Source: a virus. Taken from it: a stretch of 36,610 nucleotides of DNA. Shown one piece after another: positions 1-36,610 of this stretch. The stretch covers positions 1-36,610 of the IMG/VR virus record IMGVR_UViG_3300021356_000066, one strand, 5' to 3'. Both the position numbers and the translations under genes were made by a program. The notes under the pieces are model-generated. The model saw only the letters and a program-made list of their open reading frames with translations. It did not search any database and had not been told where the DNA came from. Within the stretch, counting starts at the first letter, position 1; each line of letters begins with the position of its first letter.

Positions 1-1
1 G

Positions 2-187: not shown

Positions 188-196
188 GGGAAACGT

Positions 197-1063: not shown

Positions 1064-1418
1064 CACATTTGAAGAAGACGTTTCTAAACTACTAAAGGGT
1101 TTTGATTATGAGCCGTTCACCGTCCCCTACACCATTCAGCGCAGTTATCGTCCTGATTTTGTTCACAGCGCCTCTGGTGTTCTCGTGGAGTGTAAGGGGT
1201 ACTTTAGAGACGGAGACACTAAGAAGTACACCAGCATCAGAGATAGTCTGCCAGCAGGACAAGAGCTTGTCTTCGTACTGATGCAACCCAACAAGAAGAT
1301 ACGCAAGGGGGCTAAAATGACTATGTCAGAATGGTGTGACAAAGAGAACATTTTATGGTATACTATAGAGACACTACAGGAGTTGATTGACCATGTCGCT
1401 AACACTAGAGGAAGTTAA
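1029..1418 (+). CDS. Endonuclease I, Holliday-junction resolvase (T7 gp3-like)
   Basis: This 129-aa protein resembles phage T7 endonuclease I, a dimeric resolvase that cuts branched DNA, debranches replicating concatemers and degrades host DNA. The catalytic pattern is intact: E15/E16 near the N-terminus, P42-D43-F and E54-C-K56-G, matching the E-D-E-K set of the T7 enzyme. The VPYTI segment and the basic first ten residues also fit. Length is close to the 149 aa of T7. The start codon lies inside the exonuclease gene, preceded by GGAGG at 1018-1022, so translation is probably coupled. A diverged N-terminal part of a second copy, with three extra residues, is at 36461-36610. Confidence 0.9.
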   Translation: MSRRSRKSRFRSTFEEDVSKLLKGFDYEPFTVPYTIQRSYRPDFVHSASGVLVECKGYFRDGDTKKYTSIRDSLPAGQELVFVLMQPNKKIRKGAKMTMSEWCDKENILWYTIETLQELIDHVANTRGS

Positions 1419-1569
1419 GGAACGCCTCTTGAAAACCTTTGACCCAGACGACCTACTGGAGGCCCTACAGATAACCTCAGAGCAGATACTGGAAAGGTTT
1501 GAGGACAAGCTAATCAACAGACTGGATGTGTTTGAACAAGAGCTAGAGGAGGAAGAGAATGAGTATTGA
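1393..1569 (+). CDS. Small acidic helical protein of unknown function
   Basis: This 58-aa protein is rich in Leu, Glu and Asp and probably all alpha-helical, ending in a Glu-rich tail (ELEEEENEY). I do not recognise a family. The ATG at 1393 was chosen because AGGAG at 1378-1382 lies about 10 nt upstream; an in-frame TTG at 1387 is a possible but less well spaced start. The gene overlaps the end of endonuclease I by 26 nt and the next gene by 11 nt, so it belongs to the same translationally coupled replication operon. The early helical part (LEEVKERLLKTFDPDDLLEA) could mediate protein contacts, but this is only a guess. Confidence 0.75.
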   Translation: MSLTLEEVKERLLKTFDPDDLLEALQITSEQILERFEDKLINRLDVFEQELEEEENEY

Positions 1570-1840
1570 TGACGCGACTCCTGCTGAGTGGGACGGTATT
1601 TCTATACTGAAGAAGCAGAAGAAGGTAGACCCTGTGGAGCAACCTGACCACTACAACAAGGGAGCAATCGAAGCCATCGAAGCAATCAAAGCGTCCATGC
1701 CTGAACAGGAGTTCAACGGTTATCTCAAGGGTAACGCACTGAAGTACCTCTGGCGCTATGACTACAAAGGCAAGCCCGTGGAGGACCTACGCAAGTGCCG
1801 TTGGTACATCGACAGGCTTATTAAGGAGATAAACCAGTGA
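1559..1840 (+). CDS. DUF3310 family protein (T7 gp1.7-like)
   Basis: This 93-aa protein carries the DUF3310 signature: PDHYNKGAIEAIEAI at about residues 29-43, then YLKGNALKYLWRY and a C-terminal WYIDRLI. T7 gp1.7, which I recall as belonging to this family, has been described as a nucleoside monophosphate kinase, so a role in phage nucleotide supply is plausible. That fits its place two genes before the ribonucleotide reductase. No Walker A loop is visible, so the kinase activity is inference from the family, not from the sequence. It overlaps its upstream neighbour by 11 nt and the next gene by 4 nt (GTGA). Confidence 0.85.
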   Translation: MSIDDATPAEWDGISILKKQKKVDPVEQPDHYNKGAIEAIEAIKASMPEQEFNGYLKGNALKYLWRYDYKGKPVEDLRKCRWYIDRLIKEINQ

Positions 1841-2025
1841 AACGACTACTTCTGCTGCTTCTCCTGTCTGGATGTGTTACTGAGCCTGACACAAGGATCT
1901 GTGCTGAATACGGTTCGTATACGTACACAAAAAATAAGTGTGTTCCTTTCTACGGTGCGTTAATATGTGGAGACGAAGAAGTAACGGAAGTGTTTTGCAA
2001 AAGATATTTTGAAGAGGAAAATTAA
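1837..2025 (+). CDS. Small lipoprotein
   Basis: The 62-aa product starts MKR followed by seven leucines and the lipobox LSGC, cleavage being expected before Cys13, so it should be a lipid-anchored periplasmic protein of about 50 residues. The mature part has four further cysteines in two likely disulfide pairs. The start is GTG at 1837 (GTGA overlap with the previous gene) with AAGGAG at 1821-1826. A lipoprotein in a replication operon is unlikely to be structural. Superinfection exclusion or an Rz1-like outer spanin are options, but the Cys-rich, Pro-poor mature part does not look like Rz1. It overlaps the RNR start by one base. Confidence 0.8.
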   Translation: MKRLLLLLLLSGCVTEPDTRICAEYGSYTYTKNKCVPFYGALICGDEEVTEVFCKRYFEEEN

Positions 2026-3896
2026 TGGACGCATATCAACAGTACATTCACAAGTCACGGTACGCCCGTTACCTACCAGAGGAACAGCGACGGGAGACTT
2101 GGGAAGAAACAATCGACAGATACCTAAACTTCTGGATAGAGAAAGGTAGACTGACTCTTGAGGAAGCTAATGGCATCTTTTCTGACATCCATAGCTTAGA
2201 TGTCATGCCCTCCATGCGGGCACTTATGACTGCAGGAGAAGCACTGGACCGTGACAATGTCGCTGGGTTTAACTGCTCCTACTTGCCTATCGACCACCCC
2301 AAAGCGTTTGACGAAATGATGTACGTCCTGATGTGCGGTACAGGCGTAGGCTTCAGTGTCGAACGTCAATACATCAGCAAGCTACCAGAAGTAGCGGAGG
2401 AATTTCATGACACCGATACCGTTATACACGTCGCCGATTCTAAAATTGGCTGGGCTAAAGCATACAGAGAACTTATTAGCTTGCTCTATTCGGGTCAGCT
2501 TCCAAAGTGGGACGTATCTGGAGTACGACCTGCAGGCGCAACCCTTAAGACCTTCGGCGGTAGAGCATCTGGTCCAGAACCTCTTGTCGATCTGTTTAAC
2601 TTCACCGTTGACATCTTTCGGGAGGCTCATGGACGTAAACTCTCCTCAATCGAATGTCACGATCTCTGCTGTAAGATTGCACAGATCGTCGTTGTCGGGG
2701 GAGTACGCAGAAGCGCTCTCATCAGTTTGTCTAACCTCACTGACGATAGACTCCGACGATGCAAGTCAGGCCAATGGTGGCAGGACAATCCTCAGCGTGG
2801 CCTAGCCAACAATAGCGCATGTTACACAGAGAAGCCAGATTTTGAGGCGTTTTTAAATGAGTGGAAAAGTCTATACGAGTCCCGCTCCGGAGAGCGAGGT
2901 ATGTTCTCTAGAGTCGCAAGTCAAAAGCAAGCTGCAAAGAACGACCGACGAGATGCTACCTATGATTTTGGAACTAATCCATGTAGCGAAATCATCCTCA
3001 GGCCCTATCAGTTCTGCAATCTATCAGAAGTTGTTGTCAGGGCATCCGATACTTTGTCAGACCTCAAACGAAAAGTACGTGCTGCGGCTATCCTTGGGAC
3101 TCTTCAGGCTACCCTGACAGACTTCCGCTACTTGCGTAAGGTGTGGAAGAACAACACTGAGGAAGAAGCACTATTAGGGGTATCCCTAACAGGGATCATG
3201 GATCATCCGACGTTGTCGGGAAGGAGAGACAAAGGTGTTCTCAAGACTTGGCTTACTGAACTCAAGGAAGAAGCGATTAAAACTAATGCAGAATGGGCGA
3301 AACGTCTTGATATTAATGTGTCTACCGCCATTACTGCTGTTAAGCCTTCCGGTACTGTTTCTCAGCTTGTTGATTCTGCTTCTGGTATCCATCCTAGATA
3401 CTCAGATCAGTACATTAGAAGAGTCAGAGCGGACTCAAGAGACCCACTCTGTCGAGTCTTAGAGGCCGCAGGAGTGCCCGTAGAGGACGACGTAATGTCA
3501 CCCACTACCAAGGTATTTTCCTTCCCTATAAAATCCCCTGACGGGGCTGTGGTGGCTTCTGAGATGGGTGCAATGGAACAACTTGAGCTATGGGAAATCT
3601 ATCAGGATTACTGGTGTGAACACAAGCCGTCCATGACGTGTTACTACCGTGATAATGAGTTTCTTGAGGTAGGCCAATGGTTGTACAACAAGTTCGACAA
3701 GATAAGCGGAATCTCGTTCTTGCCTTATTCCGAACACACGTACCAACAGGCCCCTTACGAACCCATAGACTTAGAGACCTATGAGAAGCTGAAGAAGGAG
3801 TTTCCTGAGTCCATCGACTGGGCAATCTCAGAAAACTCTGACATGACGGAAGGGTCTCAGCAGTTAGCCTGCACCGGTAACAACTGCGAGTTGTAA
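2025..3896 (+). CDS. nrdJ: Adenosylcobalamin-dependent (class II) ribonucleotide reductase, monomeric type
   Basis: The 623-aa enzyme reduces ribonucleotides to deoxyribonucleotides using a cobalamin-generated thiyl radical, supplying dNTPs in the cytoplasm without oxygen or a second subunit. All expected residues are present: C84 in FNCSYLP and C331 as the redox pair, N318, C320 and E322 in NPCSE as the radical site, and C616/C621 (CTGNNC) as the C-terminal reducing pair, matching the spacing of the Lactobacillus leichmannii enzyme (C408/C419 and Cx4C). It is shorter than that 739-aa enzyme. The gene ends the rightward operon and is followed at once by a strong terminator. The phage depends on B12 in the host cell. 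I see no thioredoxin or glutaredoxin gene, so the host must reduce it. Confidence 0.93.
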   Translation: MDAYQQYIHKSRYARYLPEEQRRETWEETIDRYLNFWIEKGRLTLEEANGIFSDIHSLDVMPSMRALMTAGEALDRDNVAGFNCSYLPIDHPKAFDEMMYVLMCGTGVGFSVERQYISKLPEVAEEFHDTDTVIHVADSKIGWAKAYRELISLLYSGQLPKWDVSGVRPAGATLKTFGGRASGPEPLVDLFNFTVDIFREAHGRKLSSIECHDLCCKIAQIVVVGGVRRSALISLSNLTDDRLRRCKSGQWWQDNPQRGLANNSACYTEKPDFEAFLNEWKSLYESRSGERGMFSRVASQKQAAKNDRRDATYDFGTNPCSEIILRPYQFCNLSEVVVRASDTLSDLKRKVRAAAILGTLQATLTDFRYLRKVWKNNTEEEALLGVSLTGIMDHPTLSGRRDKGVLKTWLTELKEEAIKTNAEWAKRLDINVSTAITAVKPSGTVSQLVDSASGIHPRYSDQYIRRVRADSRDPLCRVLEAAGVPVEDDVMSPTTKVFSFPIKSPDGAVVASEMGAMEQLELWEIYQDYWCEHKPSMTCYYRDNEFLEVGQWLYNKFDKISGISFLPYSEHTYQQAPYEPIDLETYEKLKKEFPESIDWAISENSDMTEGSQQLACTGNNCEL

Positions 3897-3901
3897 CTTA
3901 C

Positions 3902-3921
3902 GGGGCTTCGGCCCCTTTTTT
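3902..3921 (+). terminator. Rho-independent terminator of the replication operon
   Basis: GGGGC, the stable tetraloop TTCG, GCCCC, then six T residues. It lies 5 nt after the RNR stop codon. The reverse strand has the hairpin but no U-tract after it, so it should stop rightward transcripts only. Confidence 0.93.
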
Positions 3922-3935
3922 ACTTAGGTTTAATT

Positions 3936-4070
3936 ATGAACATCAAGCGTGACATCGAAATCAGAATCAAAGTTCTTGAAAACAAGTTGACCAAATCCAT
4001 ACCTGCTGCTCGCAATAACGAGATACGTGGGGAGATTATGGGCCTGAAGTGGGTGCTAGAGCGTATCTAG
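3936..4070 (+). CDS. 44-aa ORF at the convergent junction
   Basis: ATG at 3936 opens a 44-aa frame (starting MNIKRDIEIRIKVLENKL) that ends at TAG 4068-4070. The product is basic and probably helical, with a heptad-like spacing of Ile/Leu in the first half. The upstream ribosome site is weak (TTAGG). It sits beyond the terminator, so it would need read-through or its own promoter, which I cannot see. Its stop and the stop of the opposing gene share the palindrome CTAG. Coding status is uncertain, but the coherent amphipathic sequence filling the gap argues for a real gene. Confidence 0.5.
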   Translation: MNIKRDIEIRIKVLENKLTKSIPAARNNEIRGEIMGLKWVLERI

Positions 4071-5797
4071 CGCTCTTCTTCCTCCTTGGACGCTAAAACG
4101 CCAGTAAACATACCAGTGCGTCCTATGTTACCCAACGCCTCTTTGTAATCAGCACGATTTGGATCTCCTTTGTACTCCACCATGACCCTTTGCTGGTACT
4201 GCTGGTTGCTTTCTTTCGGTCTCTTTGAAATTCCTGTTATCTCTTCTATCTTCGCAACACTAGGTTCTACCTTTGGTGTACGCGGGGCAGAAGCTTTACC
4301 CTTGGTTCCAATCTTGAAGGACTCCATAGGCACTACATTAATCAACGATGTACCACCCACAGGGTCCATACCAAAGAGGTCATGACCGTCAGAAATCATT
4401 GTGTACACTGTGTCTGTGTTTGTGTCGATAGCAATGAAGTCATTGACACCACCTAAGTCCTGAGCAGTAGACCTGTGAGACGCAGAGTAAGAATAGACGC
4501 CGTCTGCTACTTCGTTCACTTCTAACTTCTTCTGCCCGTCAAAGTAGTCCAAGATCTTCTGCTGTCGCTCGTTAGGGTTCTTCGCAAGCTTGGCCCTAAA
4601 GTAATCCTGCATAAACCTAGCTTTTTCTACGGCCCCTGACGTGGTATTCAAGACGTTTTTAGGCAGAACTTCTTTAAACACTGCTTCTCGAACCTTCAGG
4701 GCGTCCGAAGCGTTACCTACAGTACGAACCATTCCGTAGAAGTCCTTGTCGTTCATGTCTGGAAACGCTTTTCTAGCAAGGTCTATCGTGGGTTTACTCG
4801 AAAGCAGAACGAGAGAAGGAGTAGCAGTGCTACCACCTAAGGCTTCCGCCTGTAGTTTTTCCCCTGACTCTTGACGACGAACAACAAGCTGTGTACCGCC
4901 GGGAGTTGTGGGTGTGTCGTGTACTTTGTACAGGTGGTTCATAGCTCTGTCTAGGATTACGTCCGGTACGTCTGTTGTTCCTTTGACTGCCTGCCTAGCC
5001 CGTGGTTTATCAGCCATGTCAAAAGCGTCGTCCACGTATCGCTGCATTTCAACTGAGCTACCTACGACGGTATCACGGTCAGGCGTCATACGTCCCTTCT
5101 TTTGTGCGTCGATGAAGGCGCTTTCTCTTACACTAGCGTCTCGTACATTAGCTTTAGGATCAGTAACGGCTTCCTTTACCCTGCCTCTTCCTGTACCGAT
5201 AACTCGTTTTTTAGCTATAGCCTCAGGAGAAAACATTTCGTACATAGCGTCTGGGATTGCACCTATAGCAGGACCGGCGACTGCCTGTAGTTTACTAGCG
5301 GGGTCTGGAGATCGGTAGAAGTTATCAATACGTGTAGGCAGGTTCTCTGCCAGAGTGTTTATAGCGTCGCCAAAGAGCCTACCAGAACCCTTAAGTCCTG
5401 CTAGTTCTGCTACGTTGCCTACTGCTTCTGCTTGCCTTGGATATCTACGGGCAGTCTCCATAAGACCTTCTGGTATACGTTGAGCCACAGCTTGTGATAT
5501 AGCTTCAGTGGGCAAAACCGTACGCGCTGCTCCAGTAAAAGGAGACAGAGCAGCACCCGCAAGTCCTGCCATCATGTTTAAACCGCCGTACATTGGGTCT
5601 GCAGGAGTTCTGGGGTTGAAGCCTTCTCCTGCTCCTTTACGTACCTTAGCTACGGAACTGCTAAAGTCCTCTGCAATATTCCCAGCAGTAGTTGTCACAG
5701 GACTAGCCACAGCCCTGCTAATGAGTCTTCCAGCCTCCCTTTCTTTTACTCTAGCGGCGGCTTTCATTTCCCTACGAAACTTTTGAAAATCACTCAT
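4067..5797 (-). CDS. Putative virion protein, last gene of the structural operon
   Basis: This 576-aa protein is of unknown family. The N-terminus is basic and helical (MSDFQKFRREMKAAARVKER), followed by an Ala/Gly-rich stretch with weak hydrophobicity and a more globular C-terminal half. It is the last of four large genes after the tail tube genes, the position where T7-like phages keep internal core and ejection proteins, so a DNA-ejection or internal virion role is inferred. An upstream TTG at 5827 would add ten residues. I prefer the ATG at 5797, which overlaps the previous gene by 8 nt and has purine-rich GAGAGGAAACGAAAGAAG before it. No lysozyme or transglycosylase motif was recognised. 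Confidence 0.75.
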   Translation of the reverse strand: MSDFQKFRREMKAAARVKEREAGRLISRAVASPVTTTAGNIAEDFSSSVAKVRKGAGEGFNPRTPADPMYGGLNMMAGLAGAALSPFTGAARTVLPTEAISQAVAQRIPEGLMETARRYPRQAEAVGNVAELAGLKGSGRLFGDAINTLAENLPTRIDNFYRSPDPASKLQAVAGPAIGAIPDAMYEMFSPEAIAKKRVIGTGRGRVKEAVTDPKANVRDASVRESAFIDAQKKGRMTPDRDTVVGSSVEMQRYVDDAFDMADKPRARQAVKGTTDVPDVILDRAMNHLYKVHDTPTTPGGTQLVVRRQESGEKLQAEALGGSTATPSLVLLSSKPTIDLARKAFPDMNDKDFYGMVRTVGNASDALKVREAVFKEVLPKNVLNTTSGAVEKARFMQDYFRAKLAKNPNERQQKILDYFDGQKKLEVNEVADGVYSYSASHRSTAQDLGGVNDFIAIDTNTDTVYTMISDGHDLFGMDPVGGTSLINVVPMESFKIGTKGKASAPRTPKVEPSVAKIEEITGISKRPKESNQQYQQRVMVEYKGDPNRADYKEALGNIGRTGMFTGVLASKEEEER

Positions 5798-7400
5798 CTT
5801 CTTTCGTTTCCTCTCGTGTCTGGTCAATGAGGTCTACGAGCAAAGCTCTGTCCATCTCAAACTGCTTCAACAGGTAAGCGTCCTTAGTTCCTTTTATGGC
5901 TTTGTCAATACCTGACAGAAGCTCTGCGTATGCCTTGAGTCGTCGCTTGGGTTTTAACGCAAGATACGCACCATAGACACCTAAGCCAGCCGCAGCAGTA
6001 CCGGCAGCAGCCGCAGCACCACCTAAAGCAGCTACACCAGCAGAAGTAGTAGCAGTCAACGCAAGTGGTGTCGAAGGTAAATCTGCTACGTCCTTGACTC
6101 TGTCAAAACTACGAGCCAACATGTTGCCTAGTTCTTTTGCACGTTTGTTTGACATAGCGTCCAAAGCTAAAAATGCGTTGTGCTGTCGGTCCAACAGATT
6201 GTGCAGCTTTTCGCCTCTAGTGTTTGTCTTGAGGGTGTTGTTTAGGACGTTACGTATGGCCTTAGCTGCCAAAGCTCTACCAGAGGCAGACTCTGCGTCA
6301 AGAACAGTAGAAGAAGCTCTACGCAAGGCTGCGTCAAACTCGCGTCGTGCCTTAAGTACACCATTTAAGTCCGTACCGTGTTTTTGCACAAGCTCTAAAG
6401 CAATCTGTCCAAGCTCCGCAGCAATCTTCTGTGCGTCCCCTGTAGCCAAACGGAACACAGGGTCTTGTTTGAACTCGTTGATTGCTCCTAGTAGGTCTTC
6501 TGTTAACACGTCAGTGTCAATGGCCTTGTTCTGAGCTACAATCATGTTGTCCACAGCTTGTGCAGAACTGGCGATGTCCTTTTGTACAACACGGTAGTTG
6601 TAGGTATAGGAACGCTTAGGGTTAACTTCTTTGATGTCAGCCAGTGTTTCAATGACGCCTTGGTCTCTAGCGTTAGGTTGCCACTCACGTCTACGGAGTG
6701 GTCCTACTTCTTCTGCTACAGCGTCTCCGGGTAATACCTCTGGCTCAATCAGCTTAGTTGTGCCTGTGATTCTGTCAGCCCTGATTGCTTCACGGGCTTC
6801 TTTCTGTGCGCCTCTGACCACGCCTTCAGGCAGACCTACGTCAGGCATGTCAGGACGTGGGCTAAAGAGCGCACCTAAGTCAATAGACGTTTCAAATCGT
6901 TCTGCCATAGCTGGGTTTTTAGCTGCCCAGTCTTGGTAGAACTCGTAACCCTTAGACGCCGCACTGGCGGCTGTCTTAAATGCTTCAGTGTTTTGAACCT
7001 GAGCAAACAAGTCCTGTGCGCCTTCTTTGACTGATTGAGGCAACAAACCACCAATGTAACTACTCAAGGCCGCACCACCTGCTCTAGCAGCTTGTGACAC
7101 ACCGATAGCTGCGGCTTCTGGCGCTCTAAAGACCTGCTCTGCAACACTAGGGCCTTCACCAGCAACTCTAGCAAACCGTCGTTGTACTTCCGGTACAAAC
7201 TGTTGCGCTTCTTCTTGCAACGTCTGAGACGCCTGTTGAAGACCTATGCCGGGACCAAAGGGCTGCTGTGGTTGTTGCGGCTGTTGTAAAGGACCATAAA
7301 GCTCTGCAGCCTGTTCCGCTAGTTCTTCAGCAGACTGGCGGTCACCTGCAGCCAACGCAGCGTCAATAGCCGCCTTGTACTGTTGTTGAGTGTATTGCAT
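5790..7400 (-). CDS. Putative internal virion / ejection protein with C-terminal membrane segment
   Basis: This 536-aa protein has a short helical N-terminus (TPR-like AAIDAALAAGDRQSAEELAE at residues 10-29), a PQQPQQP linker near residues 39-47, a long Ala-rich helical middle and, near residue 460, a Gly/Ala-rich hydrophobic stretch followed by KPKRR, which looks like a membrane-inserting segment. That layout fits proteins ejected with the DNA to form the trans-envelope channel in short-tailed phages. The assignment rests on composition and location, not on a recognised family. It overlaps the next gene and starts 9 nt after the previous one ends. Confidence 0.7.
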   Translation of the reverse strand: MQYTQQQYKAAIDAALAAGDRQSAEELAEQAAELYGPLQQPQQPQQPFGPGIGLQQASQTLQEEAQQFVPEVQRRFARVAGEGPSVAEQVFRAPEAAAIGVSQAARAGGAALSSYIGGLLPQSVKEGAQDLFAQVQNTEAFKTAASAASKGYEFYQDWAAKNPAMAERFETSIDLGALFSPRPDMPDVGLPEGVVRGAQKEAREAIRADRITGTTKLIEPEVLPGDAVAEEVGPLRRREWQPNARDQGVIETLADIKEVNPKRSYTYNYRVVQKDIASSAQAVDNMIVAQNKAIDTDVLTEDLLGAINEFKQDPVFRLATGDAQKIAAELGQIALELVQKHGTDLNGVLKARREFDAALRRASSTVLDAESASGRALAAKAIRNVLNNTLKTNTRGEKLHNLLDRQHNAFLALDAMSNKRAKELGNMLARSFDRVKDVADLPSTPLALTATTSAGVAALGGAAAAAGTAAAGLGVYGAYLALKPKRRLKAYAELLSGIDKAIKGTKDAYLLKQFEMDRALLVDLIDQTREETKEDE

Positions 7401-7409
7401 AAATACCTC

Positions 7410-8678
7410 TTATGGAGTTAAGTAGCTCTGTGCTTGTGGAGATAGACCAGAAGCAGTAGGACCAGCATCTACAAAGATGTCGCCATAGAATGCTAAAGCA
7501 GGTGCGTTTTCTCCTAGTTTTTCTTCTAGGGTAGCTCGTGTGTCTCTGTAGTTTTTAATGGTACGCTGTGCGTTGTCTTTGATTACACCTAAAAGACGCT
7601 TTAAAGCTACTCTGTCAACAGTAATATTACCTGCTACTACTTTCTCTGCGTACTCACGGTCAGCATCCGACAAGCCCGTACCAGCACCTAAGTTGGTAAT
7701 GTACTGTGCCACACGTCTACCTGACTCTGCAATGTAAGCTTCTGTGTCAGCGATAGTAGAAGGATCAACTACGTCAAGACCAAAGGCACGAGCGTATCTA
7801 GAGATATTCAGCTTAAGTTCTGCACCAGCGCCTGTGAACATGTTGTCAATCGTCGGGAGTGTACGGTTGACCGATCCAAGAGCGTCTGCGGCAAGTCTAG
7901 CATTTTCGTGTGCTTCAGCAAAGTTCTTAGCACCTACTTTAGCCAACTCATCTGCCATACCTGTGGCGATGTTTTCCACACGCTGTATTTGAGGTGGTGC
8001 CTGTTCTAACCCAAGTTCGCTTGCTTCGACCCATTTTTGTGTTTCGTCGCTCCACACACGACCACGCTCGTTGACGCGGAAGAACTCAACTTTGTTGTCT
8101 CTTTGGAAAGGCTTAAGGTCGCCTTTTTCACCTGAGATGTACTCATTGAAAACACTGTCACGAACCGTTGCTAACTCAAGTTCATCAAACAAGTCTGGAG
8201 AAATACCAGCCGCATTTGCCATACGCTTTCGTACTAAAGGACTTTGAGTAGGCATTTTATCAAGTTCTGCCTGACGGATTTCTTTAGCAATGTCCTTAAG
8301 CTCTTCTTTATCAGCTACGCCTTCGACACGCGAAGCAAGCTCAGGCAAACCCAAAGAAGTAGCAGCAGCAGCAAGGCTGGCCTTACGTGCGCCAAAGGCT
8401 GACTCTGCTGTAATTTGTGCTTGTAGTTTACGTGCTGCTTCTTCGTACTTTACAGCATTAGGGATGTCACCTTGCTGCCGGTAAAACTGAGCCAACTGAA
8501 GCAAACCTTCAGGAGAGTTAGTGTCAATCTGAGCCAGCTGTTGACGCTGTTGTTGCATCTGTTGTTGCTGCCTAAGTTGTGCAGGAAGCTGTGCTGCTTG
8601 TTGTGAGGCAGTAAACAATCCTTGACCATAAGTAGGTTGCAACAGACCTTGTAAAAATGCTTGTGAAAACTTAGCCAT
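7410..8678 (-). CDS. Putative internal virion protein, Gln-rich N-terminus
   Basis: The 422-aa product begins MAKFSQAFLQGLLQPTYGQG and has a Gln-rich, probably coiled-coil segment at residues 35-50. A TPR-like helical pair follows (LLQLAQFYRQQGDIPNAVKY, about residues 59-78). The rest is mixed alpha-helical with no known catalytic motif. The gene lies in the tail/internal protein cluster, 2 nt after the preceding gene. By position it is an internal or ejection protein; a tail assembly role is possible. Confidence 0.7.
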   Translation of the reverse strand: MAKFSQAFLQGLLQPTYGQGLFTASQQAAQLPAQLRQQQQMQQQRQQLAQIDTNSPEGLLQLAQFYRQQGDIPNAVKYEEAARKLQAQITAESAFGARKASLAAAATSLGLPELASRVEGVADKEELKDIAKEIRQAELDKMPTQSPLVRKRMANAAGISPDLFDELELATVRDSVFNEYISGEKGDLKPFQRDNKVEFFRVNERGRVWSDETQKWVEASELGLEQAPPQIQRVENIATGMADELAKVGAKNFAEAHENARLAADALGSVNRTLPTIDNMFTGAGAELKLNISRYARAFGLDVVDPSTIADTEAYIAESGRRVAQYITNLGAGTGLSDADREYAEKVVAGNITVDRVALKRLLGVIKDNAQRTIKNYRDTRATLEEKLGENAPALAFYGDIFVDAGPTASGLSPQAQSYLTP

Positions 8679-8680
8679 AA

Positions 8681-9676
8681 TTAACCACTCCCCGGAATTA
8701 AGCTACCAAAAAAGTTACCTAAAGCAGAAGCCATACCAGAAGCAGAAGTCTGAGTTGACCTAGGCGTCAAAGCTCCTGACAAAAGGCCGGTGCCTGTTTG
8801 ACCCAGCAAGTTTGCTCGTGCCTGTTCTGCAATCAGTCTTGCTTCTAAGCCAGACATAGCCGCTTCGCCAAACAATCCAGCGCCCTGTAGCTGTGCTTGC
8901 TGTTGCAACGCTGCCAATTGCTGTGCAGGCTGCGTAGCCGCCATAAGCTGTTGCTGTGGTACGTAACCTGCGCCAAGGAATGCTTGACCAAGCTGTGCTT
9001 GCTGCATTTGCTCTTGACGTGCCTGCTGTGCCGCACCAAGTCTTGCTTGCGCCATTGCTTGTTGTTGCGCTCGTTCCATAGCAAGTTGCTCAGGTGTACC
9101 ACCAAACTGCGCTGTGCGTATACCAAGCCGTCCTTGTGCTGCTAAACGCTCTTCTAAGCCAAGACGCTCCATGCGCTCATCAGCCTCAGTAGCCGCCCTG
9201 ATTTGTTCGTATAGCTCGTTTTCACGGACAGAAGGATCAACCATAGCTCCTCCGAACATCTGACCAGCGCCACCTAAAAGCTGTCTTTGCATTGCCAGTT
9301 CATCAGGAGACAAACCCATAGTGGTTTCTACTACGCCTTCAGGAGTTACTCTTGTTCCCATTCCAGCGCCAGTAGCAGTCGTTACCGTAAACGGTCTAAA
9401 CTGCGTTTGCTCTAGTTGGGTTTCAGCAAGCTCCATAGCGCCCGGTATACGAACACCATCGACAGTCGTACCTAAAACTGCTTGTCTACCTATGTCGCTA
9501 AGACGATCGTAAGCTTCACCTGTTAACAGTCCACCAACAACACCCGGAAGTAAAACATCGGGTTGCAATAGGTATGACCCAAGATCTCCCAACAAACCAA
9601 GAAAGGCGTTTCCTCCACCTCCAGAGCTTTCCTCCGTGGTAGATGTTGTATTACTTGTTACTATAGGACCAGCCAT
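8681..9676 (-). CDS. Putative internal virion protein, Ala/Gln-rich
   Basis: This 331-aa protein opens with a Ser/Thr/Gly-rich low-complexity tail (to about residue 22), then a hydrophobic Leu/Gly-rich stretch (residues 24-52, LLPGVVGGLLTG) that could interact with membranes. A long Ala/Gln/Leu helix-forming region follows (about 190-290). The family is unknown. It directly follows the tail nozzle gene, so it probably belongs to the particle. High Ala and Gln content with few charges resembles ejected internal proteins such as T7 gp14, but there is no clear sequence match. Confidence 0.68.
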   Translation of the reverse strand: MAGPIVTSNTTSTTEESSGGGGNAFLGLLGDLGSYLLQPDVLLPGVVGGLLTGEAYDRLSDIGRQAVLGTTVDGVRIPGAMELAETQLEQTQFRPFTVTTATGAGMGTRVTPEGVVETTMGLSPDELAMQRQLLGGAGQMFGGAMVDPSVRENELYEQIRAATEADERMERLGLEERLAAQGRLGIRTAQFGGTPEQLAMERAQQQAMAQARLGAAQQARQEQMQQAQLGQAFLGAGYVPQQQLMAATQPAQQLAALQQQAQLQGAGLFGEAAMSGLEARLIAEQARANLLGQTGTGLLSGALTPRSTQTSASGMASALGNFFGSLIPGSG

Positions 9677-9688
9677 AGTTATCTCCCG

Positions 9689-11197
9689 TTAAAGTAGCTT
9701 TCCTATCAAAGCCATTACGTTAATCTCCTGTAGTGATAGCTGTGAGCCATCAATCTCTGCTTCTAAACCTACAACAACACTTGTTCCGTAGCCTGTTGCG
9801 TTTAAACTTCTTTGGTTAGTCAAAGCACCGCCTGTGAATTCCACAGTTGTGTACTCGCTTTCGTTGAAGAAACCAGTAATCTGATCTCCTACTGTAAACT
9901 CTGCTGTTGCGTACGTACCTTCAAAGTCATACGCCCATTTCATAAATACTGTTGCGTTGTTTGCACCAACAAGTGTAGGCTTTAGCTTCTTCAAGATCTT
10001 GACTCTGGAACTGTCACCAAATGTCAAACTTGGGCTGTAGTACTTAAAGCGGTAACCTAAACCGTTGTCCTGATAGCCAGTGTACTGACTTATACCTTCA
10101 GACGTGCCTATGTAAAAGTCACCGTTGTCCAAGCGCGTGTAACAGCTAAAGCCTGTAGAAGGCCAGCGAGTAACACGATACGAACCATTCTCTGTTGTGC
10201 CTCTAACGTCGAAGCAGTAGGTGTTGTCTTGGCCTACAAAGGTCAATAAGTAAAAACCTTCTTCAGGACTATAAGCAGATCTAAAGAATGTGTTTTCTGT
10301 TTGCAACGCACTAATAATGTCTTTTGTAATGTTTCCAGACAGACTACTAATAGGTAGTGACTTCTCTTGTATTGTTCTACCAAAACTTTTAAGACCTGTG
10401 TGTGCTAAGAACAACACGTCTGTACCAGTGTATTGTACAGTGTCTCTATCTACGCAACCAACGCCTGCTACAGTGTCAGCCAGTGTCATTGTTGCTGGTG
10501 CTTCTGCTCCTTGATATGCAATGATGCTGTGCTTACCAAAGATAATTAAGAGTCCATTGTGTGCAGCTAAAGCTACAATCTCGTCATACCCATCAGGCCA
10601 GACCTTTGACACATCAATAGAGCCGCTAGTACCGCCTGTGTAGTCGTGACCAATAAGCAAGTCAGACCAGTAAACAATAGAAGGACTACCACCAACACCT
10701 GTTACCCAAAGACGACCATAGGCTGACAGCACTTCGTTACCTAGTGGAACACCAGCAGCGCCAGCTACTGAGTCTAAACGTACTACAGACGAGCCGTCGT
10801 ACACCAAAGGCTCATGAGAAGCTTGAAACAAGTACGCCTTGTCGTTAAAGTTGACAATTTTCCAGTTGTCTGCTGTAACTGTGTAACTACCGGGTGTTGC
10901 GTCAGTAAGTGTAGTAGTTCCTGTGAATATTTTATTATTACCTACAGACAAAACTACGTTGCTGCCAGTGCTTCTGTCAAACTCTTTTATAGCCCTAATC
11001 GTGCCAGAGCCTAACGCTGTCTTGTTAGTTGTAATAACACTATGACCCTTACGTGCCGCAATACGACCACGTTTGTCAATAACAGCGTTGTCTGCTATTT
11101 CAGCAAACGACGGATCTTGAGCTAACGGCGAGTCTTCAGTGTTAATACCTTTGAAGGCCGGTGCTACAAGATTAATGCTTTGTAGTTGTTGTGCCAT
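9689..11197 (-). CDS. Tail nozzle / tail tubular protein B-like protein
   Basis: The 502-aa protein is predicted to be almost wholly beta-strand. It contains phrases typical of podovirus nozzle or tail-stabilising proteins: FKGINTEDSPLAQDPSFAE near the N-terminus, IDKRGRIAARKGHS, then repeated blade-like units (SVGNNKIFTGT, NFNDKAYLFQASHEPLVYDG) suggesting a beta-propeller. It follows the adaptor gene with one base between them, as gp12 follows gp11 in T7. It should form the distal end of the short tail through which DNA leaves. The fold is inferred from pattern, not from an alignment. Confidence 0.68.
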   Translation of the reverse strand: MAQQLQSINLVAPAFKGINTEDSPLAQDPSFAEIADNAVIDKRGRIAARKGHSVITTNKTALGSGTIRAIKEFDRSTGSNVVLSVGNNKIFTGTTTLTDATPGSYTVTADNWKIVNFNDKAYLFQASHEPLVYDGSSVVRLDSVAGAAGVPLGNEVLSAYGRLWVTGVGGSPSIVYWSDLLIGHDYTGGTSGSIDVSKVWPDGYDEIVALAAHNGLLIIFGKHSIIAYQGAEAPATMTLADTVAGVGCVDRDTVQYTGTDVLFLAHTGLKSFGRTIQEKSLPISSLSGNITKDIISALQTENTFFRSAYSPEEGFYLLTFVGQDNTYCFDVRGTTENGSYRVTRWPSTGFSCYTRLDNGDFYIGTSEGISQYTGYQDNGLGYRFKYYSPSLTFGDSSRVKILKKLKPTLVGANNATVFMKWAYDFEGTYATAEFTVGDQITGFFNESEYTTVEFTGGALTNQRSLNATGYGTSVVVGLEAEIDGSQLSLQEINVMALIGKLL

Positions 11198-26011: not shown

Positions 26012-27265
26012 TTAGTATCCTGCTACCACGTCTAAAATATCATGGTCTTCTATTTCGTAGTCGTAGTCATACGCTACATTTGCCAGTTGGTCGATGTACG
26101 CCAAAGCGTCCACTAAGTCGTCATGGGTCAAAGGGTCAGGAAACTGAAAGAGTTGGTCTAGAAATCTAGAGTTCCACTCTCCTTTGTTCAGCGTAATGTA
26201 CCCATTTTCAAAGCGTCCTTGTAACGCCCACATTACCCTGTCTGTTTTCTTTTTGTTACCGTGTGTCAACTCTTCTACTCTAAAGAATGTTCCGTACCGC
26301 TTCTGTAGATCCATCAGAGGTGACATAACGGCTTGTTTAGCAATACCTCTTTCGATTCCCACCGATATGGGACGGTAATCTCTAACGGCCTGAAATATCT
26401 TAGCTGCTGTTTCGTCAAGTGACCATCGACCGTATATGATATTGTCAACAAACCAACCATGCTCATTGACCTTAACCACGGCGATCGCTGTGTCGTCAAG
26501 TTTGGAATTCTTAGTCTTTTTCTTGTTGACTTCCTCAAATCCTGCCAAGTCAACTGCAATGTAGTAATCTCCTATTTCGGGCCTATCTTCACTAAATTGG
26601 ACCCAGTCTTCCTTAAACATTTCTGACCCACGCGCTTCAAAGCTTGCCATAAACTCTTGGCGAAACGCATAAGAAGACATAGACTTTTTAGCAATATCAA
26701 TTTCGTCCGGGTCCAGCAACGGATTGTCGTAAGAAGTAAAGTGGTATGCAGCGTACGTCGAATCATTGCTTAACTCCGCGTATTTGTACAGTTCGTAGAA
26801 GTGGTTGCGACCCATAGGTGTTCCTATGAACATTGCACATCCCTTCTGGTCAGCCAAAGCAGGTCTCAGGATCTGCTCAAATACCTCAGGCTTCATGTCA
26901 GCGTACTCGTCCATTACGAGGAACTTGAGGCTAACTCCTCGCATAGTTTCGGGGCGGTCGGCTCCCTTGAGACTGATAGTGGCTCCATTAATAAGCTTAA
27001 TTTGAAGATTATTAACATGACTACCACTGATAACTTCATGCCCGAGATCGAGAAGGGTGGTCCACATGATGTCTCTGGCTTGTCCCTGAGTAGGTGCGAC
27101 GTAAAATACATGTCCTTTGTCTGCCTGTAGTGCGTTAACGATTAACATCCACGCTGCTAACCTAGACTTACCCGTACGTCGCCCAGCAGCTACTATTTTA
27201 AATCTTGTGTCGTCTGCCCAGACCTGTTGTTGCCAAGGCAGTAGTTCTATGTTTAGATCAGTCAA
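26012..27265 (-). CDS. terL: Terminase large subunit (packaging ATPase-nuclease)
   Basis: The 417-aa motor protein has a Walker A-like AAGRRTGKS (residues 26-34) and Walker B LVMDE (116-120) with the catalytic glutamate. The coupling motif region is FIGTPMGRN, and a C-terminal RNase H-like nuclease is marked by D239 (AVDLAG) and HDDLVDALAY (381-390). It cuts concatemers and drives DNA into the prohead. It is short compared with the 586-aa T7 subunit, but both domains are present. It overlaps the preceding gene by 4 nt (ATGA) and is followed by portal. Confidence 0.95.
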   Translation of the reverse strand: MTDLNIELLPWQQQVWADDTRFKIVAAGRRTGKSRLAAWMLIVNALQADKGHVFYVAPTQGQARDIMWTTLLDLGHEVISGSHVNNLQIKLINGATISLKGADRPETMRGVSLKFLVMDEYADMKPEVFEQILRPALADQKGCAMFIGTPMGRNHFYELYKYAELSNDSTYAAYHFTSYDNPLLDPDEIDIAKKSMSSYAFRQEFMASFEARGSEMFKEDWVQFSEDRPEIGDYYIAVDLAGFEEVNKKKTKNSKLDDTAIAVVKVNEHGWFVDNIIYGRWSLDETAAKIFQAVRDYRPISVGIERGIAKQAVMSPLMDLQKRYGTFFRVEELTHGNKKKTDRVMWALQGRFENGYITLNKGEWNSRFLDQLFQFPDPLTHDDLVDALAYIDQLANVAYDYDYEIEDHDILDVVAGY

Positions 27266-27603: not shown

Positions 27604-27953
27604 TAGTACAACCAAATCACTGGAGTAGTACCCCTAGTGTCCACATGTACAAACGTATCAGCAATACCCACACCAGTAAAACCAAGGTTTAAAGCATTAG
27701 CCACAATAGTGTAGCGGTGGGCGGCATTAGTTATTTTTATGTCAGCCGCGATTCCTTGGGCATGTGTTCCCGGCACTTCCTTTTTTCTTTCAATAGGGTG
27801 CTGAGTTGGATGACGGTAACCAGACGTCACCTCAAACGGGAAGCCACATGCACCCCGCAATTGGTCTAACTTCTCTAGGAATTCTTGTTCCATGTTGTTG
27901 GTGCCAGTGACCTGACAGTCAAACTCTTCTCTTGTGAAGTGCTTAAGACCCAT
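27603..27953 (-). CDS. M15 family peptidase endolysin (L-Ala-D-Glu or D-Ala-D-Ala type)
   Basis: The 116-aa enzyme has the peptidase M15 pattern: HFTREEFDCQ at the N-terminus, SGYRHP near 44-49, and zinc ligands H64 (THAQG), D71 (AADIK) and H103 (FVHVD). It should cleave peptide bonds in peptidoglycan after the holin opens the membrane. It lacks a signal peptide, so it needs the holin. It is encoded between the small and large terminase genes, about 11.6 kb from the holin cassette, though in the same strand and arm. It overlaps terS by 11 nt. Confidence 0.88.
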   Translation of the reverse strand: MGLKHFTREEFDCQVTGTNNMEQEFLEKLDQLRGACGFPFEVTSGYRHPTQHPIERKKEVPGTHAQGIAADIKITNAAHRYTIVANALNLGFTGVGIADTFVHVDTRGTTPVIWLY

Positions 27954-28329
27954 CTACTACTTCTCCTTCTATGATATCGTCTGGAGTAGTTACTTCGGCA
28001 GTACCGACACCTGTAATATTAATTTGTATAGCGTTTCTACCGGTGTCTTTGACTACGTCTTTCTCAAAAGCACCCACTGGTAGTATACGGTCCATCACAA
28101 GTTTCCAAGCAGCAGCTTGATTCTTATGGTCATTGTCTAAAGCAGCATCAAAAATAGTCTCTAGGACCTTACGAGACTTAGGACTAGCCAACATTCTAGC
28201 CTTGTACTCATTAATTATCGCTGCGTCACCCTTGGGTCGGCCTACTTGACCCTTGTTTCCGGGCTTTACAGCGGCTACTTCGGACTTCCGGGGTCTGCCA
28301 CGACCTCTTTTTTTAATTTCAGTGGTCAT
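27943..28329 (-). CDS. terS: Putative terminase small subunit
   Basis: The 128-aa protein is placed just upstream of the packaging genes and is first in the leftward operon. It starts with an AT-hook-like KKRGRGRPRKS (residues 6-16) and a second GRPKGD, then a helical core (ARMLASPKSRKVLETIFDAA, AAAWKLVMDRILPVGAFEKD) and an acidic C-terminal strand region. DNA-binding tail plus oligomerising helices fits small terminases of podoviruses. The strong promoter at 28358-28386 lies about 30-57 nt before the ATG. Confidence 0.78.
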   Translation of the reverse strand: MTTEIKKRGRGRPRKSEVAAVKPGNKGQVGRPKGDAAIINEYKARMLASPKSRKVLETIFDAALDNDHKNQAAAWKLVMDRILPVGAFEKDVVKDTGRNAIQINITGVGTAEVTTPDDIIEGEVVDGS

Positions 28330-28357
28330 AACATAAATTATCCCTAATTACAACAAT

Positions 28358-28386
28358 AGTATAACACAAGTTGACACGAAAGTCAA
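28358..28386 (-). promoter_or_regulatory. Sigma70-type promoter of the leftward structural operon
   Basis: On the minus strand TTGACT (complement of 28381-28386), a 17-bp spacer and TATACT (complement of 28358-28363) give a near-consensus host promoter. Transcription should begin near 28351, 22 nt before the small terminase ATG. Confidence 0.85.
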
Positions 28387-28544
28387 GCTATTTTAAAGGT
28401 AAAAGCAGTAGAAGTATAAACACGAGTAAAATCAACAGGTTACATGAGTTTAATTTATGGGTAATTTTCCTAATTTTGACCTATTTTGTGCGTAAGGGGC
28501 TACTACAAAAGTACAACACATGTCAACCCCTCCCCCGGGGCCTA

Positions 28545-28592
28545 AAGTTATCCACAAGTTGCACACAAGGCGGGATAACCTGTGGATAACTT
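28545..28592. promoter_or_regulatory. Inverted pair of consensus DnaA boxes (putative replication origin)
   Basis: AAGTTATCCACA and TGTGGATAACTT form a perfect 12-bp inverted repeat with a 24-bp gap. Each arm contains TTATCCACA, the high-affinity DnaA box of E. coli (28548-28556 and, reversed, 28581-28589). A related GGGATAACC lies at 28572. Together with the nearby AT-rich DNA and direct repeats this suggests an origin bound by host DnaA. A phage operator is the alternative. Confidence 0.6.
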
Positions 28593-28777
28593 GGGGTGCG
28601 ACACTGGCATGGTTTGTGCTTGTGTTGACAAGTGTGTGAGCTTGTGTTGGACCCTTTGGACCTACCTTATATCACACGCGCACACGCGACTAGCACGGAA
28701 TAACATAAGCAGTCAATAGTCCAAATGTGTGAATATTTACGCTTCACATCTGGGTCAACCTGTGGCTTACTACACAC

Positions 28778-29068
28778 ATGGCGAGACGGGGACCGAAGCC
28801 ACCCCAAATGAGAATGATTCTTATGACTACACTAGACAGAGACACAGCGAAGAACATCGCGGAGATTATGACGACATACATGGTATGGGACAGCATCGCA
28901 AGTGATGCGCTAGACGATCCGGAGAAGACTAGCGACGACTATCGCCGGTATCGTGCATGGTCATACGAGGCAGTAGTAGAACTTGCGGACGTCTACGGAA
29001 TCGAGTTGCCAACAATCACACTCGCTAGGCGATACCTGCGAGACGAATACAGACAACTCGCGGCATAG
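28778..29068 (+). CDS. First early gene, unknown function
   Basis: This 96-aa protein begins MARRGPKPPQMRMILMTTLD; I do not recognise it. The first ten residues are basic (RRGPKP, somewhat like an AT-hook) and the rest is acidic and helical, with SYEAVVELADVYGIELPTIT near the end. Downstream ATGs at 28808 and 28823 are alternative starts; none has a good ribosome site, so a leaderless or short-leader mRNA is possible. As first gene of the rightward arm it could be a DNA-binding regulator or a host-takeover protein; nothing proves it. Confidence 0.65.
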   Translation: MARRGPKPPQMRMILMTTLDRDTAKNIAEIMTTYMVWDSIASDALDDPEKTSDDYRRYRAWSYEAVVELADVYGIELPTITLARRYLRDEYRQLAA

Positions 29069-33991: not shown

Positions 33992-35619
33992 TTTACCTTG
34001 ACTTGGAAGCCGACGGCCTCAACCCCACGCGCATCTGGTGTGTCGTGACACGGGAAAACGGAGTAAACACTGTACACAAGGACCCAGACACCCTCTGTAA
34101 GGCTCTAGAAGGCTCTGTGAGCGTCGTAGGCCACAACCTGATAGGTTACGACCTCCCAGTGCTAAAACGTCTCTGGGGCGTTTCTGTGGCCCCTGAGCGC
34201 ATAGTGGATACTTTAGTATTATCTAGGCTTTACGACCCAAGTCGTGCCGGTGGACACTCCCTGAAGGTCTGGGGTGAGCTTCTGGGCTTCCCCAAAGGTG
34301 ACCACGACGATTGGTCCTGCTTATCTACTGCTATGATTGAGTACTGTGAGCGTGACACAGAGGTCACAGAGGCCGTACACAAGCAGTTAGTCAGGGACAT
34401 GACAGGGTTCGACCAACGGTCCATCGACTTGGAACACAAGGTGCAGTACGCTGTACAACAACAGGAGAGAAACGGATGGTTACTTGACCAAGAGTTAGCA
34501 CATGACCTTTTAGCAACATTTAAGGAGAGAATGAATGAAATTGAAGAGGAATTACAGGAGAAGTTCCCCCCTATCATACATCAAAGGTGGTCTGAAAAGA
34601 CAGGCAAACGCCTTAAGGATAGAGTCGAGATATTCAATGTTGGTTCTAGACAGCAAATTGCGAGGCGCTTATCGACGCTTGGTGTTGTCTTTCAGAAAGT
34701 TACGGAGAAAGGGAATCCCATTGTTGACGAGGCTGTACTAGACACCATTGACCTGCCAGAGGCTAGGTCCATTAGTGAGTACTTGATGCTACAAAAAAGA
34801 TACGCACAGGTCCACTCATGGCTAGAACATGTGCAGGACGACGGAAGAGTTCATGGCCGTGTCATTAGCAACGGTGCAGTCACTGGACGCATGACCCACC
34901 AGAGTCCCAACATGGCTCAGGTCCCAGCAAGCCACAGCCCCTTTGGGCATGAGTGTCGCTCCTGCTGGACTGTGCCTGAAGGGAAGGCTTTGGTTGGCTT
35001 CGACGCTTCTGGGTTGGAACTTAGAATGCTGGCACATTACATGGACGATAAGGAGTTTACCAATGTCCTCCTCACCGAAGATATACACACAAGAAATCAA
35101 CTGGCTGCGGGGCTGGAAACAAGACCTCAAGCTAAGACTTTCATCTACGCTTTCCTCTACGGAGCAGGAGATGCAAAAATTGGAACCATCGTTGGAGGAA
35201 GCGCAAAGGACGGCGCAGACCTTAAACGACGATTTCTATCAAATACACCTTCTCTTGAAAGTCTACGAGACCGCGTTGCTAGAGCATCTGGGCGAGGCTA
35301 TCTCACAGGACTTGATGGACGTAGACTTAGAGTTCGATCTGAACATGCTGCACTGAACACACTGCTTCAGGCGGCAGGGGCTATCGTGATGAAGCAAGCT
35401 TTGGTCACTTTGGACGACTACGCACGACAGTGGAAACTTGACTATAAATTCATAGGTAACATACATGACGAAGTACAATCGGAGGTGGCTGCAGACCAAG
35501 CAGAGAAGTATGGCTGGCTCGCAGTGGAGTGCCTCAAGGCGGCAGGGGTGGAATACAACCTCCGATGTCCTCTTGACGGAGAATACAAAGTTGGAACAAC
35601 GTGGGCAGAAACTCACTGA
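33988..35619 (+). CDS. polA: Family A DNA polymerase with 3'-5' exonuclease (T7 gp5-like)
   Basis: The 543-aa replicative polymerase has exonuclease motifs D5-x-E7 (YLDLEADG), D55 (VGHNLIGYD) and YCERD (D123). Polymerase motif A is GFDASGLELR (D339), the O helix R379, K383, Y387 and Y391, and motif C IHDE (D494). Y387 matches T7 Y526 (E. coli F762), a Tyr state linked with virulent phages. It starts with TTG in a TTGA overlap; no ATG is near, and D5-x-E7 shows that the start cannot be much later. It is about 160 aa shorter than T7 gp5, and I see no clear thioredoxin-binding insert. The 3' end is repeated at 1-187. Confidence 0.94.
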   Translation: MIYLDLEADGLNPTRIWCVVTRENGVNTVHKDPDTLCKALEGSVSVVGHNLIGYDLPVLKRLWGVSVAPERIVDTLVLSRLYDPSRAGGHSLKVWGELLGFPKGDHDDWSCLSTAMIEYCERDTEVTEAVHKQLVRDMTGFDQRSIDLEHKVQYAVQQQERNGWLLDQELAHDLLATFKERMNEIEEELQEKFPPIIHQRWSEKTGKRLKDRVEIFNVGSRQQIARRLSTLGVVFQKVTEKGNPIVDEAVLDTIDLPEARSISEYLMLQKRYAQVHSWLEHVQDDGRVHGRVISNGAVTGRMTHQSPNMAQVPASHSPFGHECRSCWTVPEGKALVGFDASGLELRMLAHYMDDKEFTNVLLTEDIHTRNQLAAGLETRPQAKTFIYAFLYGAGDAKIGTIVGGSAKDGADLKRRFLSNTPSLESLRDRVARASGRGYLTGLDGRRLRVRSEHAALNTLLQAAGAIVMKQALVTLDDYARQWKLDYKFIGNIHDEVQSEVAADQAEKYGWLAVECLKAAGVEYNLRCPLDGEYKVGTTWAETH

Positions 35620-35628
35620 GGAAAGCGC

Positions 35629-36501
35629 ATGAAAAATGTCTATACATTAGTCTCTGACATTTACAAATTGATGGAGACGAAAGAAGTAGCAGAAGGCGTG
35701 GACCTAGAGTCTGCTATTGACCTCTTCGGAGAAAACGTCAAGGACCTTATGCGTAAGGAGTTTGGCGAAAAACGAAGCGACAACCGTAAGCTACGTATGT
35801 CCAACATTGGGCGCGAGGACAGGTATCTTTGGAACGTCTACAACGACGTAGAAAAGTCCGACGACATACAGGGCCACACCTATGTCAAGTTCCTTTATGG
35901 TCACCTCATTGAGGAGATGCTACTGTTCTTAACTAGAGCTGCAGGACACGAGGTAACCGATGAACAGAAAAAGTGTGAGGTTAACGGTATTACAGGTTCG
36001 ATGGACTGTAAAATCGACGGTATTGTTACTGATGTTAAGAGTGTTTCGACTTATGGGTTTAAAAAATTCAAAGATGGGACACTGGCTTATGACGATCCAT
36101 TTGGCTACGTGGCTCAAATTAAAGGATACGCATATTCAGAAGGTGCTACTAAATTTGGATGGTTAGCCATGGACAAGCAGAATGGACACCTCACGTACCT
36201 CATGTACGACGAGGAGGACACTCAGGCCCCTGTGTATGACTTGATTAGCTATGACATATCGGAGCGCATTGACCACGTAAAAAAGCTAGTGGAGCATCCA
36301 ACCCCGCCCGACGTATGCTACGGCACTATCGACGATGGAAAGAGTGGGAACCAGAAACTCGCCGTCGGATGCTCCTACTGTTCCTACAAAAAGGTATGTT
36401 GGCCTACCGTACGCGCCTTCGCCTATTCTTCAGGTCCAAGATATTTAACGGAGGTTATCAATGAGCCGAAAGTCCCGGAGATCCCCCTTAGGGAAATTTA
36501 G
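35629..36501 (+). CDS. Cas4/RecB-like PD-(D/E)XK exonuclease (right copy)
   Basis: The 290-aa second copy of the exonuclease keeps all motifs seen in the first (YGHLIEE, GSMD, DVK, QIKGY and the C-terminal CSYC...C). Changes include S3N, D9S, H29A, E31D and N130D, and the last residues differ (IPLREI instead of ITLS) because of the nearby 9-nt indel. It follows polA by 9 nt and overlaps endonuclease I by 41 nt. In a circular map it is the same locus as 197-1063. Confidence 0.85.
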   Translation: MKNVYTLVSDIYKLMETKEVAEGVDLESAIDLFGENVKDLMRKEFGEKRSDNRKLRMSNIGREDRYLWNVYNDVEKSDDIQGHTYVKFLYGHLIEEMLLFLTRAAGHEVTDEQKKCEVNGITGSMDCKIDGIVTDVKSVSTYGFKKFKDGTLAYDDPFGYVAQIKGYAYSEGATKFGWLAMDKQNGHLTYLMYDEEDTQAPVYDLISYDISERIDHVKKLVEHPTPPDVCYGTIDDGKSGNQKLAVGCSYCSYKKVCWPTVRAFAYSSGPRYLTEVINEPKVPEIPLREI

Positions 36502-36610
36502 AAGCGCGTTTGAAGACGATGTCAGCAAGATACTAACAGGTTTTGACTATGAGCCGTTCACCGTCCCCTACACCATTGAGCGCAGTTATCGTCCTGATTT
36601 TGTTCATAGC
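36461..36610 (+). CDS. Endonuclease I, N-terminal part (cut by the window end)
   Basis: Fifty codons of the second endonuclease I copy. The start MSRKSRRSPLGKFRSAFEDD has three more residues than the left copy (MSRRSRKSRFRSTFEED). The catalytic acidic residues near the N-terminus and PDF are present; the ECKG part lies beyond the window. GGAGG at 36450-36454 is the ribosome site. Confidence 0.9.
   Translation, partial: MSRKSRRSPLGKFRSAFEDDVSKILTGFDYEPFTVPYTIERSYRPDFVHS

Follow-up and report, generated by a model that had tools for sequence, protein, structure and literature searches.

Two perfect DnaA boxes lie in an inverted pair between the divergent gene arms of a virus in the T7-like group. 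Do they mark a replication origin, or do they serve another purpose at this place? The pair was found in a virus record of 36,610 bp, which was analysed as a whole and is called the window here. The original prediction was that host DnaA, recruited by the pair, starts replication in place of priming by a phage RNA polymerase.

Results

Gene arms of the window

The leftward arm carries the terminase, portal, capsid and tail genes. The rightward arm contains small genes, a Gp2.5-like SSB, a primase-helicase and DNA polymerase A, and this arm also encodes a Cas4-like exonuclease, an endonuclease and a class II ribonucleotide reductase. The box pair was expected between divergent arms, and it does lie in the noncoding gap that separates them.

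26012-27265, minus strand: large terminase subunit (TerL)
27943-28329, minus strand: conserved 128-aa AT-hook protein, candidate small terminase subunit (AT-hook Pfam match and family alignment)
28330-28777: noncoding gap between the divergent arms, holding the DnaA box pair
28358-28386, minus strand: sigma-70-like promoter TTGACT-N17-TATACT of the left arm, conserved in relatives
28778-29068, plus strand: first open reading frame of the right (early) arm, with no family match

The 128-aa AT-hook gene is a candidate TerS from its position; the predicted fold of its product was of low confidence (pLDDT 58) and uninformative. As the original prediction had assumed, no RNA polymerase of the T7 type was found in the window; three named T7-like phages, used as controls, were positive in this search. 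A Pfam-only search gave no positive control signal, and the absence of the polymerase rests on the positively controlled search. No phage-encoded DnaA was found in 13 records (controls positive). No integrase was found in 16 records, so there was no sign of lysogeny in them.

No close named relative of the window phage was found. When genome collections were searched for the host, the matches were phage contigs only, in MAG bins from mixed phyla. Contigs L439-L445 (63-84% TerL identity) were binned in MAGs of Bacteroidota, Actinobacteria, Verrucomicrobia and one archaeon, and look misbinned. The ends of the window contig overlap by 1178 bp at 91% identity (1-1169 and 35433-36610) inside the DNA polymerase and Cas4-like exonuclease region, which gives two near-identical copies of the Cas4-like exonuclease gene. 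Most likely the contig is a complete assembly, circle-like and about 35.4 kb long, in which two strains were joined.

The DnaA box pair

The perfect box TTATCCACA occurs exactly twice in the whole window. The pair and its surroundings were as follows.

28545-28592: inverted repeat with both boxes (arms 28545-28560 and 28577-28592)
28548-28556, plus strand: perfect DnaA box TTATCCACA
28581-28589, minus strand: perfect DnaA box TTATCCACA
28612-28649, plus strand: two copies of a GTTTGTGCTTGTGTTG-type direct repeat, 22 bp apart (28612-28627 and 28634-28649)
28673-28688, plus strand: tandem octamer CACACGCG, two copies, on the early-gene side of block A (see below)

The arms AAGTTATCCACA and TGTGGATAACTT form a perfect 12-bp inverted repeat, which extends to 16 nt at 94%. 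The DNA left of the pair (28338-28480) is 71% AT. The sequence elements of the original prediction (two perfect boxes in a 12-bp perfect inverted repeat, AT-rich DNA, 22-bp-spaced direct repeats and a tandem octamer) were all present. The cumulative GC-skew minimum was located at 28566, between the boxes, where it coincides with the coding-strand switch.

In dinucleotide shuffles (n = 300) the count of perfect boxes was 0.26 per window, and pairs within 60 bp never arose; the analytic chance probability of the pair is about 1e-4. That two DnaA-like 9-mers met here by chance would agree with the lack of the pair in the closest relatives (L002, L004 and L019), but this probability and the box arrays of cousins at the homologous place make such an accident extremely improbable. 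Judged by their sequence, these are real, non-random DnaA boxes.

DnaA boxes in relatives

Eighty TerL relatives were compared. The exact inverted pair was absent from L002, L004 and L019, which are among the closest relatives by TerL or primase, and the box set of L016 differs from that of the window. Box conservation had been proposed as a check, and the exact pair proved to be mostly missing from the closest relatives. Cousins carry large arrays at the same place (L006, L007, L008, L010, L011, L012, L013, L017, L020 and L021), with 3-13 boxes each when boxes with one mismatch are counted. Neighbouring boxes of the same orientation were 11 bp apart in 44 cases and 22 bp apart in 13, which puts them on one helix face. 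The density of perfect boxes was 1.94 per kb upstream of the candidate TerS gene and 0.006 per kb elsewhere in the related loci, a difference of about 300-fold. These arrays are helically phased.

Inverted pairs of perfect DnaA boxes were also seen in unrelated viral contigs (L082-L161). Among the matches listed, their total lengths seem to cluster at 30-34, 44-47 and 50-57 bp, as if helically phased. A conserved 215-aa protein encoded near the junction, seen in the early region of L006, looked exclusive to the phages with DnaA arrays at first. It was dropped as a partner gene when it was found in 7 of 16 loci with DnaA arrays and in 15 of 85 loci without boxes.

A conserved frame around a variable array

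The arrays lie within a frame of constant order, which runs from block A through the array, the G-tract CGGGGGAGGGG, 33 bp and block B (CAGACACAAAAAAG) to AT-rich DNA. Beyond the AT-rich DNA it continues with the sigma-70-like promoter and the conserved 128-aa AT-hook gene. In the window, these elements of the frame lie next to the box pair.

28469-28490, minus strand: conserved AT-rich element CACAAAATAGGTCAAAATTAGG
28484-28506, minus strand: block B (GTAGTAGCCCCTTACGCACAAAA), counterpart of CAGACACAAAAAAG in relatives, by alignment and core scan
28527-28537, minus strand: conserved G-tract CGGGGGAGGGG, adjoining the array
28629-28654, minus strand: block A (GGGTCCAACACAAGCTCACACACTTG), assigned in the window by homology only

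The alignment of the gap showed CGGGGGAGGGG, then 33 bp of variable sequence, then CAGACACAAAAAAGAGTMAAATTAG; the array is variable and the frame constant. A scan of the collection found the core, G-tract-N33-CAGACACAAAA, in 85 viral contigs. In 64 of 80 core loci (L331-L410) the spacer from G-tract to CAGACACAAAA was exactly 33 bp, and the candidate TerS (AT-hook) gene lay downstream of the core in 72 of the 80. The sequence of this spacer varies and its length is fixed, which amounts to a rigid geometry.

Block A of the relatives (GGTNCTNCYTAGACTCTCACAC) is a second conserved block, upstream of the array. Blocks A and B resemble each other in direct orientation: the best 17-nt match was at least 12 in 23 of 111 loci, compared with 2.9% of shuffles, and reached 16 of 17 in L080. 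In the window itself the similarity between A and B was not significant, and the blocks there were placed by alignment. At the beginning of contig L013 (1-75), the start of the AT-hook gene and its promoter are present as an inverted copy, which joins block A at an ACACAAGT microhomology. A chimera or a fold-back near the predicted end is suggested.

Different host-regulator-like sites in the same slot

Sites were counted within 230 bp of the G-tract, with the expectation taken from the rest of the same loci. Beside the G-tract, TTATCCACA was found 88 times against 0.29 expected, and the Fur-like TGAGAAYCRTT 21 times against 0.10. C[AG]TGCCAA reached 73 (0.9 expected) and AAACAN8TGTTT reached 15 (0.23 expected). 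The LexA-like TACTGTN8ACAG was found 13 times near the G-tract against 0.03 expected, with several of these sites outside block A. The alpha-proteobacterial LexA motif was not enriched beside the G-tract. The regulator names are assigned from matches to consensus sequences of the literature, and binding by these regulators is predicted. In most close relatives DnaA boxes are absent and other site families occupy the slot; some relatives fill it with CATGCCAA or CATGCAA repeats. The array is exchangeable: it is made of DnaA boxes, of Fur-like or LexA-like sites, or of repeats with other putative binders.

Several arrays were seen individually. Triple Fur-box-like sites fill the slot in L358, L361, L364, L379, L072 and L471, with a spacing of 23 bp except in L471, which has AATGATAATGATTCTCATT twice. 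LexA-like boxes (TACTGTATATNTGTACAG) of the CTGT-N8-ACAG type lie upstream of the G-tract in L391, L406, L337 and L344, in tandem in the first two; their sequence suggests gammaproteobacterial hosts for this subgroup. Arrays of AAACAN8TGTTT were present in L355, L376, L378, L388, L409, L410 and L064, of TTGCATTYTG in L026, L342 and L370, and of GTATGNNNNNCATAC in L366, L395 and L475. Repeats of the GTTCTATTATGGAAC type lie beside DnaA boxes in L463, L467 and L468. More LexA-like or Fur-like palindromes, in L366, L370, L378, L395, L405, L389 and L391, lie 150-214 bp upstream of the G-tract, beyond block A towards the early genes; in G050 a Fur-like palindrome takes their place in this region. 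These palindromes may be operators of early promoters that are also exchanged.

Contig ends and the predicted terminal repeat

The contigs L339 and L340 start at the identical place inside block A. L054, L388, L066 and L005 have an end within about 15 bp of this place, and the right end of G039 falls in the block. The full-length G057 (37.6 kb) runs from the G-tract to a point 36 nt beyond block A, with its break exactly in the array. Such clustering at block A would be expected of a fixed genome end, and assembly breaks at repeats could have contributed to it. Some observations speak against a genome end at the junction. Through exact overlap of their ends, three long relatives close into circles. 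Across viral contigs, tandem DnaA arrays showed no significant nearness to contig ends (8 vs 4.9). The window contig was opened elsewhere than at the junction, as in a circle-like assembly.

28484-28654: predicted direct terminal repeat or concatemer junction, from block A to block B, about 150-170 bp, by inference from relatives

The only two perfect boxes of the window fall inside this predicted repeat, and the physical ends of the window phage are predicted at the same place.

Terminal repeats of named phages

The Enterobacter phage phiEap-1 has a direct terminal repeat of 195 bp (1-195 = 38939-39133), the Shigella phage A7 one of 177 bp (1-177 = 39882-40058), and the Klebsiella phage Kp7 one of 238 bp (1-238 = 45760-45997). 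A DnaA-box array occurs together with a G-rich tract in each of these identical terminal repeats. Within the scanned stretches, phiEap-1 and A7 have perfect boxes in the repeat only, and Kp7 has a single one outside it. All three phages encode an RNA polymerase. The element of the window resembles theirs as a short noncoding element of repeat size, with a G-rich tract and with TTATCCACA boxes that are mostly separated by about one or two turns of the helix. Unlike the elements of these phages with their own polymerase, it lies between divergent arms, has two boxes, and its repeat is predicted.

The terminal repeat of T7 contains CCTAAAG repeats and CCCCCATAGGGGG. It shares with the window a G/C-tract and short repeats, spaced by about 13 bp, at a genome end, which is predicted for the window. 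The T7 unit CCTAAAG differs from the array of the window in that it is not known as a site for a host protein. The injection stop signal of T5 (9140-10149) is annotated within the terminal repeat (1-10219) and has one perfect DnaA box and three with one mismatch. The signal is described as carrying DnaA boxes, and repeats thought to contact components of the host (PMC13250531). The window would be similar if its DnaA boxes lie in a terminal repeat, as predicted here; T5 is a siphovirus with a 10-kb repeat and a single perfect box in the signal.

Discussion

Do the boxes start replication? In an origin at the pair, DnaA would bind the boxes and melt the AT-rich DNA at 28338-28480, after which the self-loading primase-helicase, the SSB and the DNA polymerase would start bidirectional replication. 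The box cluster (two in the window, up to 13 in relatives), the neighbouring GC-rich tract and conserved AT-rich DNA, the skew minimum between divergent arms and the missing RNA polymerase of the window all agree with this. The arrangement also recalls bacterial oriC and the DnaA basal unwinding system, in which boxes adjoin GC-rich and AT-rich DNA. However, DnaA arrays are found in the terminal repeats of phages that carry an RNA polymerase, and the predicted conservation of the boxes fails among the closest relatives. The slot of relatives holds Fur-like, LexA-like or other sites, at which no DnaA-style initiation is possible. Under the DnaA-trio rule, trios lie within 16 bp of a box, and about 15% of oriCs are reported to have none (PMC8287927). 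No run of three NAN trios was present at any box in the window, L008, L013, L017 or L020, which, like the replacement of boxes by other sites in relatives, sets the element apart from oriC.

The GC skew had been proposed as a further check. A minimum does lie between the boxes, but boxes seem not to be needed for one. In the box-free relative G041 the minimum lies at the divergent junction (+167 bp), and in G039 and G047 within about 1 kb of it; in G014 it does not. Three of these four relatives without boxes have the minimum close to the junction or at it; it follows the coding strand and cannot be credited specifically to DnaA. We consider an origin that depends on host DnaA unlikely, and the proposal that it replaces priming by RNA polymerase is not upheld. 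An element at the genome end may also help replication.

Because the array can be exchanged among sites of unrelated proteins while the frame stays fixed, a mechanical or decoy function is more likely than initiation. As a decoy, many phage copies would titrate DnaA, Fur or LexA, so that host initiation is stopped or iron uptake or SOS genes are derepressed. The different global regulators apparently targeted across relatives, with several sites each and up to 13 boxes in one phage, would suit this role. Titration needs no fixed place, yet the arrays are confined to the slot beside the G-tract, and the window has only two boxes; we regard a decoy as quite unlikely. The sites could also be operators through which host regulators control the divergent early and late phage promoters. 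A sigma-70-like promoter adjoins, and in L366, L370, L378, L395 and L405 some LexA-like or Fur-like sites are found beyond block A, towards the early genes. But most arrays adjoin the G-tract, far upstream of the promoter of the left arm, a set of 11-13 phased boxes is much larger than a usual operator, and no integrase was found in the 16 records. Control of promoters is, in our opinion, quite unlikely too.

We believe that the array most likely serves as an anchor or roadblock at the end of the genome, while the DNA enters or its ends are processed. The junction at 28484-28654 would provide a linear genome of the T7 type with its direct terminal repeat, with the packaging genes adjoining, and the box pair would be a reduced copy of the terminal array. 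The boxes at this end would be occupied by host DnaA; like binding by Fur and LexA in relatives, this is predicted from the sites. What matters would be the phased nucleoprotein complex of an abundant host DNA-binding protein, not the initiator activity of DnaA. Such a complex may hold the incoming end or pause its transfer while the DNA enters the cell. Alternatively, it may act when terminase and polymerase process the ends of concatemers. We would give an even chance that 28484-28654 is a direct terminal repeat whose array is such a site for a host protein. For the T7-like group, the proposal is that the terminal repeat contains a cassette that can be exchanged, made of phased sites for global regulators of the host and placed between the G-tract with block B and block A, so that the end becomes a docking platform for an adopted host protein. 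We hold this to be as probable as its opposite.

Repeats at the ends of T7-like genomes are already known, as are DnaA boxes in the stop signal of T5. In the open-licence literature, we found no description of DnaA-box arrays in T7-like terminal repeats, and none of exchangeable arrays of different host-regulator sites in them. Arrays of short repeats at the ends of T7-like genomes have no known role. In the phages compared here, the unit of the repeat is legible: some phages have a perfect box for host DnaA, and relatives have a Fur-like or LexA-like box, in one slot beside a fixed core. The findings are also a warning that DnaA boxes in a phage do not automatically mean an origin. They lead to a testable proposal, in which DNA-binding proteins of the host are drawn to the ends of phage genomes and act there as structural roadblocks, as anchors or as decoys.
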